DNA from: a virus
Length of the DNA: 64,000 nt
IMG/VR virus record: IMGVR_UViG_3300040801_004532
Span: 64,001-128,000 of that record
Reading direction: 5' to 3' (one strand)
Below the pieces are notes generated by a model. It saw nothing but the letters and a program-made list of their open reading frames with translations, did not search any database and was not told the origin of the DNA. Positions 2,784 through 27,503 of the stretch are shown piece after piece. The position numbers and the translations under genes were made by a program. Position 1 is the stretch's first letter, and each line of letters opens with the position of its first letter.

Positions 2784-2860
2784 GGCCCAGTAGCTCTAGT
2801 GGTTAGAGCAGGTGACTCTAAATCACCGTGTCATGGGTTCGAATCCCATCTGGGCCTCCA
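2784..2860 (+). tRNA. tRNA-Arg(UCU)
   Basis: Acceptor GGCCCAG/CTGGGCC, D-arm GCTC/GAGC, anticodon stem GGTGA/TCACC with loop CTCTAAA (anticodon TCT), T-arm with TTCGAAT, discriminator T, CCA encoded. It reads AGA, a codon favoured by AT-rich genomes. Confidence 0.95.
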
Positions 2861-4210: not shown

Positions 4211-4561
4211 GGGGGCGAAATGGCTTCGACGTGGATGAAGAGGTTGGCGATGCGCTCCGTGGAGGTCCTGTTACACGTTAAACCGGGCTCTAAAACAGTC
4301 GCAGACGACTACTACACTGAAGTTGCCCTAGCGGCATAACTTCCGTCCTTCCTTGACTCCTCCGATCTTGGAAAGGGCGTCGACTAGGAGGTATAGATCA
4401 TTTCTGGCGTCTTGGAATGATCCGAATTGGAGAGACGCGACCCCCTTCCAACAGGAATGCTGGCGCCAGCGTATGGAAGGTGAGTAAAAAGACCAGCTAT
4501 GAGCGTAGTATCAAGAACTAAACTTTCGCGGACGTCGGTTCGATTCCGACCGCCTCCACCA
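4211..4561 (+). ncRNA. ssrA: transfer-messenger RNA (tmRNA)
   Basis: The 5' end GGGGGCGAAATGGCTTCGACG matches the start of bacterial tmRNAs and pairs with CGCCTCC near the 3' end. The T-arm is GTCGG-TTCGATT-CCGAC and CCA is encoded at 4559-4561. The tag frame begins at GCA 4301 and ends TAA 4337-4339. It encodes ADDYYTEVALAA, whose ALAA end is the canonical ClpXP/ClpAP degron. tmRNA rescues ribosomes stalled on broken mRNAs and tags the product for degradation. A phage copy next to its own tRNAs and Pth2 enzymes suggests ribosome rescue during infection. Confidence 0.95.
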
Positions 4562-5245: not shown

Positions 5246-5773
5246 GTGAGTATTCTTTTAGTAAGTTTGAAAACAGATCTTCAAAAAGCTATGAAACGTG
5301 AAATTCAATGCAGAAAAAAAGGGTTAATAATAGATCCAGTTGATATTGCAAAAAAGGAAGTGCCAAGAGCAATCATTAGCATGTTTCCTGAAATTGGGAT
5401 AAAACCAAATAAAGCAACAGATGATGATGTAATCAAATTATTAAAGAAATATGTAAGTCAAGAAAAGGAACGAGAGATTTATAACCAGGGATATTTGAAA
5501 GAAAAGGACGTTGAAGGTAAAAGCCCACAAGAGGTAAAAAAATTAGTCAATGAAACAATTGTAAAATACGGTTCAGAACTATCAACCCCGAACATTCAAT
5601 TCGCTGAATCATATTTGCCAAACGAAGCATCAAAAGAAGAGATCATTTCTTGGATAAAAGAGAACATAGACTTTTCACAATATAAAAATAAAATGCAAGC
5701 CATGGGACCAGTTATGAAAAAGTTTAAAAGTAACGATGGGAATTTCGTAAAAGAGATCCTAATGAGTTTGTAG
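5246..5773 (+). CDS. YqeY/GatB-type domain protein
   Basis: 175 residues from GTG 5246 behind AAGGATAAACTA. The N-terminal helix (LKTDLQKAMKRE) and the C-terminal block (AESYLPNEASKEEI, then MQAMGPVMKKFKSNDG) match YqeY, which shares a tRNA-binding helical fold with the tail domain of GatB, the Asn/Gln-tRNA amidotransferase. YqeY itself has no firmly known reaction. It is about 25 residues longer than typical YqeY. Its place in a tRNA/tmRNA cluster fits a role in tRNA handling, which is inference. Confidence 0.65.
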   Translation: MSILLVSLKTDLQKAMKREIQCRKKGLIIDPVDIAKKEVPRAIISMFPEIGIKPNKATDDDVIKLLKKYVSQEKEREIYNQGYLKEKDVEGKSPQEVKKLVNETIVKYGSELSTPNIQFAESYLPNEASKEEIISWIKENIDFSQYKNKMQAMGPVMKKFKSNDGNFVKEILMSL

Positions 5774-5780
5774 GAAACTT

Positions 5781-6009
5781 GGGGAAATGGGGAAAATGGA
5801 ATACCCGCTCCTAAAACGGAAGGAGAGCTCCCTATGGGAGGCATATGAGTCCTTGGTTTGTATGGTTGCGGATGCACCGGGATTGGGCCTGTCAGTTCAT
5901 AGCTACAGGTTTGGGAACCTTAACCCCCAACAGGGAAGCGCGTTTCCAAGAATCAAGGAGCCAAATTTGGTTAATGTGTTTGTCAGTTCGAGCCTGACTT
6001 TCCCCACCA
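5781..6009 (+). ncRNA. 229-nt class II tRNA-like RNA with a large insertion
   Basis: The ends form a tRNA: acceptor GGGGAAA (5781-5787) pairs with TTTCCCC (5999-6005), followed by A and an encoded CCA (6007-6009). A D-arm GGG-AAAATGGAATA-CCC (5790-5806) and a perfect T-arm GTCAG-TTCGAGC-CTGAC (5982-5998) are present. GCTCCT (5807-5812) can pair locally or with AGGAGC (5956-5961), which would leave a class II-sized variable region. About 150 nt is inserted between the arms. It may be an interrupted Leu/Ser-type tRNA or a novel tRNA-like RNA. Confidence 0.55.
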
Positions 6010-6029
6010 TTTCATTAAAGGAGTATAGA

Positions 6030-6290
6030 ATGAAAATCAAAGCTGGAATGTTGGTGATTCCAATTTCTTTAGAAAAAACAAGACGTAAATATGGGTCAGC
6101 TCCAGGGATGCAAAGAGCTATTAACCAAAAGAAAAAACTAAAGGTTCAATCCCCAAAATATGAATATGAGGAAGCGGACCTAATAAAGGCCGGTGGATGG
6201 TATTGGGATCCAAAGGATCTCCAGGTAATAATAACAAAGAAACAAGTCCACAAGCCGATTCATTTCTCTCCAGAAATGCTAATGGAGTAA
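6030..6290 (+). CDS. small beta protein with C-terminal FxxxxLE-type tail
   Basis: 86 residues from ATG 6030 behind AAAGGAG (longer frames would run through the tRNA-like RNA). N-terminal KAGMLVIPIS strand, basic middle, then GGWYWDPKDLQVII. It ends IHFSPEMLME, a version of the tail seen in proteins at 7702, 9103, 9499, 9907 and 10172. The N-terminus resembles the xGxxVxI start of those small beta domains. Function unknown. Confidence 0.6.
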   Translation: MKIKAGMLVIPISLEKTRRKYGSAPGMQRAINQKKKLKVQSPKYEYEEADLIKAGGWYWDPKDLQVIITKKQVHKPIHFSPEMLME

Positions 6291-6898: not shown

Positions 6899-7297
6899 GT
6901 GAAACCGAGAATAATTACCACAGAAAATAAAATTGTTTTACATCTTGAAGACCGCATTTTGTCAGTAGGGTTTTCAGATAAAGAAATCGTTATGGAAAAT
7001 ACTGATTTACCTTTGGATTACAAAAAAAGAGTAGAGGAACTAGAAAAGAAATTTTCTGAATCTAAAAAAGAATCTTTAACAAGTCCATGTAAGGATTGTC
7101 TTGTTAAATCATGTTGTAAAGATGAATGTGAATCCCTCTTTCTTTTCTTAAATCATTTAGCAGACTATGTTGGTGATTATACTATTGATGAGATTTTTTA
7201 TGTTAGAAACAATATTTCCCCAAAACTATTTGAATTAGCAATAATTATGAGAAAACGAAACGTTCGAATTGACACTTCGTGTTATGCGCCGCAGTAG
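6899..7297 (+). CDS. Cys-motif protein (PCxxCxxxxxCxxxC family, member 3)
   Basis: 132 residues from GTG 6899 behind TAGGAG. The N-terminal 60 residues form a beta-rich then coiled segment (KKRVEELEKKF). SPCKDCLVKSCCKDEC follows near residue 63, then a helical C-terminus. Here the motif is internal, unlike the short members. The last ten bases overlap tRNA-Trp. Confidence 0.6.
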   Translation: MKPRIITTENKIVLHLEDRILSVGFSDKEIVMENTDLPLDYKKRVEELEKKFSESKKESLTSPCKDCLVKSCCKDECESLFLFLNHLADYVGDYTIDEIFYVRNNISPKLFELAIIMRKRNVRIDTSCYAPQ

Positions 7298-7373
7298 TCT
7301 TAAACCTGTGTTGGTACCAGGGTTGGGCTCCAAACCCAATGACCAAGGGGTTCGATTCCTCACTGCGGTGCCA
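7288..7373 (+). tRNA. tRNA-Trp(CCA) with an enlarged acceptor/D-arm junction
   Basis: Acceptor GCCGCAG/CTGCGGT, anticodon stem TTGGG/CCCAA with loop CTCCAAA (anticodon CCA), discriminator G, CCA encoded. The D-arm CCTG-TGTTGGTAC-CAGG is preceded by ten bases (TAGTCTTAAA) instead of the usual two, giving 86 nt. The T-stem has one A-A mismatch. It should read UGG if functional. Confidence 0.8.
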
Positions 7374-26213: not shown

Positions 26214-26561
26214 TTACCGATGGTCTCCATCTCCATGAAGCACATCTCTTTTTTTTCTATCGCTCAATTTTTCATTGTTTCGTTTTGGAATTTCGTTATA
26301 GTCTATTCCAAGCCAATCACAAAATCTAGCAGAATACCAATGATAATCACCCATCTCTTCTATGATTGCCTGCTTAAACTCGTCATCAATTACACCATTT
26401 TTATCTCTAAATAGCTTTTTAACTTTCTCAGTAAATTCTCCAACTTCACCAACAATTCCCAAGACATAATATAACCAACCAGGGTCTAAACAATCTTGGG
26501 CTGAGGTTCCGACATCAGTTTTCCTACACTCTTTTTGATATTCATTAAAGTCCATTAGCAC
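26214..26561 (-). CDS. MazG-like nucleotide pyrophosphohydrolase
   Basis: 115 residues. VLGIVGEVGEFTEKVKKLFRD and IIEEMGDYHWYSARFCDWLG give the E-x2-E...E-x2-D metal site of the all-alpha NTP pyrophosphatase superfamily. Possible roles are dNTP clean-up or lowering (p)ppGpp-type signals. Overlaps queC by seven bases. Confidence 0.75.
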   Translation of the reverse strand: MLMDFNEYQKECRKTDVGTSAQDCLDPGWLYYVLGIVGEVGEFTEKVKKLFRDKNGVIDDEFKQAIIEEMGDYHWYSARFCDWLGIDYNEIPKRNNEKLSDRKKRDVLHGDGDHR

Positions 26562-27187
26562 CCACTTTCATGATGGTCACATGTACATTCGGATTTTCCA
26601 CATGCGCAAACGGGAGGTTCATATCCACTATGAATTTGACTCATAGTATAACCAAATTGATTTTGAAGGATTTGAAGAATTAATTCTTTTGACATACCAA
26701 GGAGGGGCGCAACAATTTTGATTGGTTTTACTCCGCTTATTGCACTTACTTCATTCATCTTTACAACATATTCTTGATAACAATCTGGAAATAAATTGAT
26801 TCGATCTGAATAATCAGGGCCATACCATACTTCATCTATTCCCATATTTTCTGCAACGCTCATAGCAAGTCCTAAAAATATAGTATTTCTTGCCGGCACA
26901 TTCATTGGATGAACATTTTCCCATCGAGACTCAACGAGATCTCCAGTCAACCCACTATTAATATTTAGTCCATTAATTTTGATTATCTGATATTTAACAT
27001 CTATAGAATCTAATTGTTTAACTGCATAATCTAATTCTTCAATGTGTTTTTGTCCATAATCAATTAATAAGCAATAAGGATTTTTTCCTGCCATTTTTGC
27101 AAGATGAAGCATCAATAAACTATCAGCTCCGCCGCTATATAACATTACTACATCAACATTAAGAACTTCATTTGCTACATTTTCCAT
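26555..27187 (-). CDS. queC: 7-cyano-7-deazaguanine synthase
   Basis: 210 residues from ATG 27187 behind AAAGGAGAAGGTTTA. SGGADS (18-23) is the ATP-pyrophosphatase loop, followed by IDYGQKH, VPARNTIFL and a C-terminal Cys cluster (VCACGKSECTC) that binds zinc. QueC converts carboxy-deazaguanine to preQ0. Products feed queuosine in tRNA or 7-deazaguanine bases in phage DNA. The window carries tRNAs for Tyr, Asp, Asn and His, all possible queuosine acceptors. FolE, QueD, QueE and a TGT/DpdA partner are not in this window. Confidence 0.9.
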   Translation of the reverse strand: MENVANEVLNVDVVMLYSGGADSLLMLHLAKMAGKNPYCLLIDYGQKHIEELDYAVKQLDSIDVKYQIIKINGLNINSGLTGDLVESRWENVHPMNVPARNTIFLGLAMSVAENMGIDEVWYGPDYSDRINLFPDCYQEYVVKMNEVSAISGVKPIKIVAPLLGMSKELILQILQNQFGYTMSQIHSGYEPPVCACGKSECTCDHHESGC

Positions 27188-27280
27188 TAAACCTTCTCCT
27201 TTCACAATTTGGTTTTTGTTACTCATTAAACAGTTTATCATCTCAAAAAATTTTATAGTTAAATTCTCATTGTCTATATA

Positions 27281-27288
27281 TATAAATA
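27281..27288 (+). promoter_or_regulatory. T4-late-promoter-like box
   Basis: TATAAATA within TATATATAAATAACTGAA, in the gap between divergent genes and 52 bases upstream of the plus-strand start at 27333. The same 18-base context recurs at 32173-32190 before another plus-strand block, supporting a real promoter. Confidence 0.5.
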
Positions 27289-27332
27289 ACTGAATGATAG
27301 AGCATTTGGTTTTCAAAAGAAAGGAGAACTGG

Positions 27333-27503
27333 GTGGATCGTGGATCAATCTTTACAATAATAATCGTATTCGCTCTATCATTAACTGGTGCTATTATAGG
27401 CATGTTGGTAGGCGCAATTGTTCTACCAACTCGTTTCCTTGATGGAAAAGTAAATTCCATTGGGGATATTTTAACCCCGCAAGATGATCGGGATAAAATT
27501 TAA
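27333..27503 (+). CDS. small single-helix membrane protein
   Basis: 56 residues from GTG 27333 behind AAAGGAGAACTGG. One transmembrane segment (about residues 5-30, FTIIIVFALSLTGAIIGML) and a short polar tail. No family recognised. Confidence 0.55.
   Translation: MDRGSIFTIIIVFALSLTGAIIGMLVGAIVLPTRFLDGKVNSIGDILTPQDDRDKI

Follow-up and report, generated by a model that had tools for sequence, protein, structure and literature searches.

A putative family of non-decoding tRNA mimics with a giant extra arm in phage tRNA arrays and bacterial chromosomes

The RtcB2-PrfH pair repairs damage to the decoding centre and guards against its cleavage by colicin E3 (PMC9223846), the rsr-yrlBA-rtcBA operon responds to cleaved transfer RNA (tRNA) (PMC7790460), and in Anabaena rtcB, a slipin gene and a tRNA array are under joint control in translational stress (PMC10272220). 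Could a further RNA of tRNA shape belong beside such systems? Here, we describe a 229-base RNA at 5781-6009 on the plus strand of a 64,000-nucleotide stretch of viral DNA (hereafter the window), which covers positions 64001-128000 of the 248-kb virus record IMGVR_UViG_3300040801_004532. The RNA has tRNA-like ends, that is, an acceptor stem, a D arm, a T arm and CCA, and lies in a window where 17 tRNAs called by ARAGORN and a transfer-messenger RNA (tmRNA) form an array. Taking family and mechanism together, we lean towards reading it as the member of a new family, a tRNA mimic that does not decode and may serve in the response to damage of tRNA or ribosomes. The family itself is identified with high confidence, and the mechanism is put forward tentatively, as a reading somewhat short of an even chance.

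The tRNA ends that the first-pass annotation had read at 5781-6009 are borne out exactly by pairing. The 5' strand of the acceptor stem, GGGGAAA (5781-5787), pairs at 7/7 positions with TTTCCCC (5999-6005), and the 3' part of the acceptor (5999-6009) is completed by the discriminator A6006 and an encoded CCA (6007-6009), which is also encoded in 11/11 counted same-strand tRNAs no more than 6 kb away. The D arm (5790-5806) is composed of GGG (5790-5792), the loop AAAATGGAATA with its GG dinucleotide, and CCC (5804-5806), while the T arm, GTCAG-TTCGAGC-CTGAC, occupies 5982-5998. Between them, an anticodon-like arm (5808-5825) is formed by CTCCT (5808-5812), the 8-nt loop AAAACGGA (5813-5820) and AGGAG (5821-5825). 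Consequently, the RNA has the 7-bp acceptor, the D arm with GG, the T arm with TTCRA and the CCA-ready end of a decoding tRNA, but not the anticodon loop of 7 nt that would hold U33 and the anticodon: as had been remarked earlier, no U33 is visible, and the 8-nt loop offers no usable anticodon either. The anticodon stem that had been drawn from GCTCCT (5807-5812) to the distant AGGAGC (5956-5961) has to be redrawn, however, since the real partner is the local, conserved AGGAG at 5821-5825, which is also the choice of the minimum-free-energy fold. The distant strand belongs to a helix of the extra arm (5850-5859 with 5950-5959). Neither ARAGORN nor Rfam, including RF00005, calls the RNA (Rfam at gathering and at E up to 5).

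With distant blastn, the insert at 5862-5945 (an 82-nt stretch) matches Streptomyces Gilsonvirus phages (E 2e-13), whose copy is close to annotated tRNAs and has acceptor, D, anticodon-like and T arms that differ from those of the window RNA (GTCCTTG...CGGGGAC). An exact search with a 31-mer taken from the window gave no match; pattern scans of viral contigs gave first 4 and later 38 contigs, and a single core pattern gave 32 genome contigs. All but a few of the pattern matches show a tRNA 5' half before the core and a T arm with a matching acceptor after it. Three loci (L053, L062 and L076) were rejected as chance pattern matches that have no T arm. In three others (L022, L025 and L040) the ends are unplaced, the 5' parts running off the locus, yet they score 60-71 bits with R1, a covariance model of the core and the T arm. 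Core-pattern scans and the covariance model bring the relatives to about 35 viral and 29 chromosomal ones, in Bacteroidota, Actinomycetota, myxobacteria and other lineages, with additional copies in the Streptomyces phages Kela, JustBecause, Alone3 and LuckySocke and in Streptomyces linear plasmids. Two diverged copies of the RNA are present in some contigs, both viral and of Streptomyces (L036 and L068). It should also be noted that two Gordonia Kenoshavirus phages (L012 and L013, both at 1190-1290) carry a short unannotated tRNA-like sequence, with the family D arm and a CCG-AAA-CGGAGAC-like motif and without the core, which is possibly a degenerate or core-less relative.

As a check on the structure, the first-pass annotation had proposed to compare relatives for covariation and for conservation of the closing stems, and the stems are indeed kept, with compensatory changes. 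In 15 compact relatives, covariation is seen in each of the acceptor, the anticodon-like stem, the extra-arm helix and the T stem. Pairing holds in 97.8% of cells, 18 pairs show two-sided change, and the covariation score is 0.523, versus at most 0.092 for slid partners and 0.182 in shuffles, with 0/500 shuffles reaching the observed score. Features of the tRNA elbow are retained as well: among 48 dereplicated relatives, GG is found in the D loop of 47, T8 in 41 and A14 in 43. A 7/7 acceptor is present in 47 of the 48, with 45 distinct acceptor stems, although the acceptor and the T arm were also used for placing the ends and their conservation is partly by construction. Since nearly every member has its own acceptor stem, a common synthetase identity is not indicated and no common identity element was seen among the 48; aminoacylation identity was rejected as an explanation on the same count.

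Then, could the RNA be a decoding tRNA (Leu/Ser), interrupted or of class II, that holds an intron, as the first-pass annotation had considered? The tRNA ends and the class II topology are what such a gene would show, and a group I intron in a tRNA gene is likewise a structured insert in a tRNA-like gene. The anticodon-like arm, however, is complete and 5' of the insert in 48/48 relatives, with a stem that varies in sequence and a conserved loop of 7-16 nt, usually with AAA at its start and preceded by a varying nucleotide. Because this hairpin with its A-rich loop directly follows the D arm, the insert occupies the place of the variable arm rather than interrupting the anticodon loop, so the label class II tRNA-like given earlier holds, while excision of the insert would leave no anticodon. 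In addition, the loop has no U33 or consistent anticodon and appears to pair with the core (see below), and the group I and group II covariance models that had been suggested as a check gave no match. An intron-bearing decoding tRNA is therefore scarcely credible. With ordinary class II tRNAs (Leu, Ser, Tyr) the RNA shares a cloverleaf with an enlarged variable arm, but its extra arm is several times longer, has a conserved core and accompanies a loop without U33 and anticodon.

The extra arm follows a small hairpin, CTCCC-TAT-GGGAG (5828-5840), which stands in the minimum-free-energy fold between it and the anticodon-like arm and is variable in length across the family, being absent or longer in relatives. 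The outer helix of the extra arm (GCATAT 5841-5846 with ATGTGT 5974-5979) is likewise suggested by that fold only. The next helix is formed by TCCTTGGTTT (5850-5859) with GAATCAAGGA (5950-5959), 10 bp in the fold, and its equivalent in relatives covaries at 6/6 counted pairs. Inside lies the conserved core (5866-5945, 80 nt, TTGCGGATGCACCGGG...CAGGGAAGCGCGTTT), which recurs in viral and bacterial contigs. Two types of core can be distinguished: the long type occurs in the window, in Actinomycetota and in phages of Actinomycetota, and most other relatives have the short type. The core helix TTGG (5883-5886) with CCAA (5927-5930) is CCGG/CCGG in most relatives, and two-sided changes stay paired in 100% of cells, including the TTGG/CCAA of the window; the core hairpin CCTGT...ACAGG (5888-5909) shows compensatory changes in alignment A4.

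The 3' end of the core is complementary to the anticodon-like loop, and we propose a pseudoknot of AAACG (5814-5818) with CGTTT (5941-5945). Across the family, AAAACG(GA) in the loop can pair with CGTTT(T) directly 3' of the invariant AGGGAAGCG. The pairing of loop and core lies above permutations in the 48 relatives and in the 38 left without Bacteroidota, in a test that ignores relatedness. Compensated cases are AAATG/CATTT (L024), AAAACC/GGTTTT (L072), AAGC/GCTT (L032) and CATG/CGTG (L038), and also L101, whereas in the compact alignment A2 the columns are nearly invariant and thus uninformative either way. Because most Bacteroidota pair less well and because of the neglect of relatedness, the pseudoknot is rated as likely rather than certain. 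It would account for the missing U33 and the missing anticodon: if the core pairs with the loop, the loop cannot decode.

A near-invariant, multi-helix core with a pseudoknot, kept across phyla with no protein neighbour common to all members, also brings to mind a catalytic RNA, that is, a ribozyme cleaving or ligating RNA on a tRNA chassis. Known ribozyme families gave no match, however, and conservation of the core fits binding equally well, so that catalysis seems very improbable.

How does the RNA compare with the described tRNA mimics? With YrlA (RF02553) it would have in common that it is a non-decoding tRNA mimic in the same Ro60 and RNA-repair loci, but its acceptor and CCA are at the transcript ends, and it has an anticodon-like arm and a unique extra-arm core. 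Up to E 5, the YrlA model does not hit 5700-6100, and its best score in the whole record, 15.6 bits, lies elsewhere. With tmRNA (RF00023) the RNA shares the acceptor, the T arm, CCA, a large pseudoknotted insert and a place in the tRNA array of this phage. However, tmRNA has no D stem and carries a tag reading frame, whereas the RNA described here possesses both a D stem and a closed anticodon-like arm. The hit of the tmRNA model is confined to 4211-4561, away from 5781-6009. Over 5700-6100, none of 4227 Rfam models matched on the strand of the RNA at E<=5, and a lone chance hit was antisense (6002-6100). The searched open literature holds no description of the RNA, although the main Y RNA papers were outside that search and an earlier mention is possible. 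Because every known family tested failed a defining feature, we regard the RNA, as judged from its sequence, as a new family uncatalogued in Rfam, within the broad idea of tRNA mimicry common to tmRNA and YrlA. The relatives make up that family, and the suggestion of a new tRNA-like regulatory RNA made in the first-pass annotation is thus supported.

The model R1 allows the family to be followed beyond the pattern matches. It gave 28 matches at 49-73 bits outside its training set and 54.8 bits (E 3e-16) on the window RNA, while the strongest other hits, tRNA T arms and chance matches, reached at most about 28 bits. A single copy is present in 24/26 bacterial genomes reached through the loci. 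In genome sets drawn by kinship alone, with the starting genomes included in the counts, carriers amount to about 14/195 genomes in the Fulvivirga order, 6-7/145 in a myxobacterial class and 9/201 in Flavobacteriaceae. The distribution is patchy, as expected of an accessory or mobile island.

In viral loci, at least two tRNAs lie within 2.5 kb of the RNA in 30/35 cases, all on its strand, and in chromosomal loci at least two same-strand tRNAs within 2.5 kb are found in 13/29. Among Flavobacteriaceae, eight loci were reached by the model only, and a slipin (Band_7) gene is beside the RNA in all 8, downstream by 0.75-0.88 kb in 7 and upstream in 1. Of these loci, 7 have 5-15 tRNAs within 4 kb, 5 have RtcB, and 4 (L147, L148, L150 and L154) have PrfH with RtcB2 upstream; PrfH is also found in L123, a Flavobacteriaceae locus to which the core pattern led rather than the model. 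In L123 and L124, also of Flavobacteriaceae, 16-19 chromosomal tRNAs stand together with RtcB, PrfH, slipin, nucleotidyltransferase-like and exonuclease-like genes, and these arrays are candidates for a translation-damage island. RtcB is present in 38/39 RNA-bearing bacterial genomes versus 9/14 of a control set; with RtcB so frequent in the controls, its adjacency and not its mere presence is the argument. In Bacteroidota, the genes around the RNA make up a set of the same kind as the RtcB2-PrfH, rsr-yrlBA-rtcBA and Anabaena systems introduced above. Such a repair-type neighbour was not found in actinobacterial and myxobacterial loci, nor was a neighbour shared across the myxobacterial loci.

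The Cytophagales-type loci raise the question of whether the RNA is a divergent bacterial Y RNA, with Ro60/Rsr as its partner, which would tether or gate the Ro60 ring like YrlA. Y RNAs are tRNA mimics (PMC8394870), and Ro60 (TROVE) neighbours the RNA in 10/13 widened loci of this type, several of them also with Hen1, Pnkp and a WYL-type regulator. But the same loci contain separate YrlA-like RNAs at other coordinates (E 1e-8 to 1e-3, below the Rfam cut-off), and the RNA itself is not matched by the YrlA model. Its ends, moreover, make an acceptor stem with CCA rather than a Ro60-binding stem. TROVE is found in 16/40 RNA-bearing records and is undetected in 23/39 bacterial genomes and in the phage record, which is possibly incomplete. 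A simple Y RNA was rejected on the neighbouring YrlA-like RNAs and the missing model match, and a divergent one is quite improbable.

To return to the non-decoding mimic, how might it work? The full tRNA body, the closed anticodon-like arm and the giant extra arm whose core complements the loop can be read in its letters. We infer that the RNA would be excised and matured like a tRNA, by RNase P and the CCA enzyme, which would make it stable. Its tRNA body should allow the RNA to be processed, keep it stable and open the way to tRNA-binding factors, the locked anticodon-like loop would abolish decoding, and the invariant core should be the surface for specific binding. The RNA would thereby serve a response to cleaved tRNA or ribosomal RNA. 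Less firmly, its partner is probably a universal part of the translation machinery (the ribosome, EF-Tu or a tRNA-handling enzyme), which it would occupy in the place of a tRNA. A universal partner is suggested because the phage carries the RNA without detectable RtcB or Ro60 and because the core is nearly invariant across phyla.

Several points weigh against such a role. The RNA is known here from sequence alone, and since the window copy has an unremarkable folding energy (z -0.99), the case for it rests on its relatives. Over all loci, the agreement in CCA between the RNA and the local tRNA array reaches only a modest level (p 0.022). RtcB, TROVE, YrlA and the PF09414 RNA ligase were undetected in the phage of the window. 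Repair genes were not found in the examined flanks outside Bacteroidota and one betaproteobacterium, and thus the link to the island may be lineage-specific.

A tRNA body with a locked anticodon loop, placed among spare tRNAs and repair ligases, could also be a decoy for anticodon nucleases. Ribotoxins would then be occupied by the RNA and real tRNAs spared, in phages against host anticodon-nuclease defences and in bacteria against toxins. For a simple decoy, however, the tRNA body alone would suffice, yet the extra-arm core is the most conserved part, and the anticodon-like loop is always of one sequence class instead of copying varied targets. A decoy is hence rather unlikely, if worth keeping in mind.

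The rest of the window offers further observations. Directly upstream of the RNA, 5246-5773 (+) encodes a YqeY-like protein (PF09424, weak). Two tRNAs of the window were missed by ARAGORN, namely a class II tRNA-Tyr(GTA) with CCA at 1243-1328 (+; TCCGGGG...CTGTAAA...TTCGACT...CCCCGGACCA) and a tRNA-Trp(CCA) at about 7289-7372 (+; CCGCAGT...CTCCAAA...TTCGATT...ACTGCGGTGCCA). The tRNA at 2784-2860 (+) was called Pyl with anticodon CTA and is a possible amber suppressor of the phage, and the tmRNA at 4211-4561 (+) is phage-encoded, with the tag ADDYYTEVALAA. At 26555-27460 (-) there is a homologue of QueC, of the queuosine pathway, which would fit a phage pathway for modified bases in DNA or tRNA.

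The RNA is unknown to Rfam, to tRNA finders and to the searched open literature, yet viruses and several bacterial phyla carry it in their genomes. In Bacteroidota its copies are physically linked with RtcB, PrfH, Ro60 and Y RNAs, whose substrates and RNA partners still pose questions, and since the RNA is small, can be made in vitro and can be deleted, those questions become testable. It might even be a second tRNA-shaped RNA beside tmRNA that acts inside the ribosome, entering with its locked loop those ribosomes that have damaged tRNAs or a damaged decoding centre, and holding, marking or releasing them. This reading is unlikely, but if it were true, large phages would carry the RNA to sustain translation under host ribonuclease attack. 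The RNA would also extend what phage tRNA arrays carry by a tRNA mimic that does not decode.
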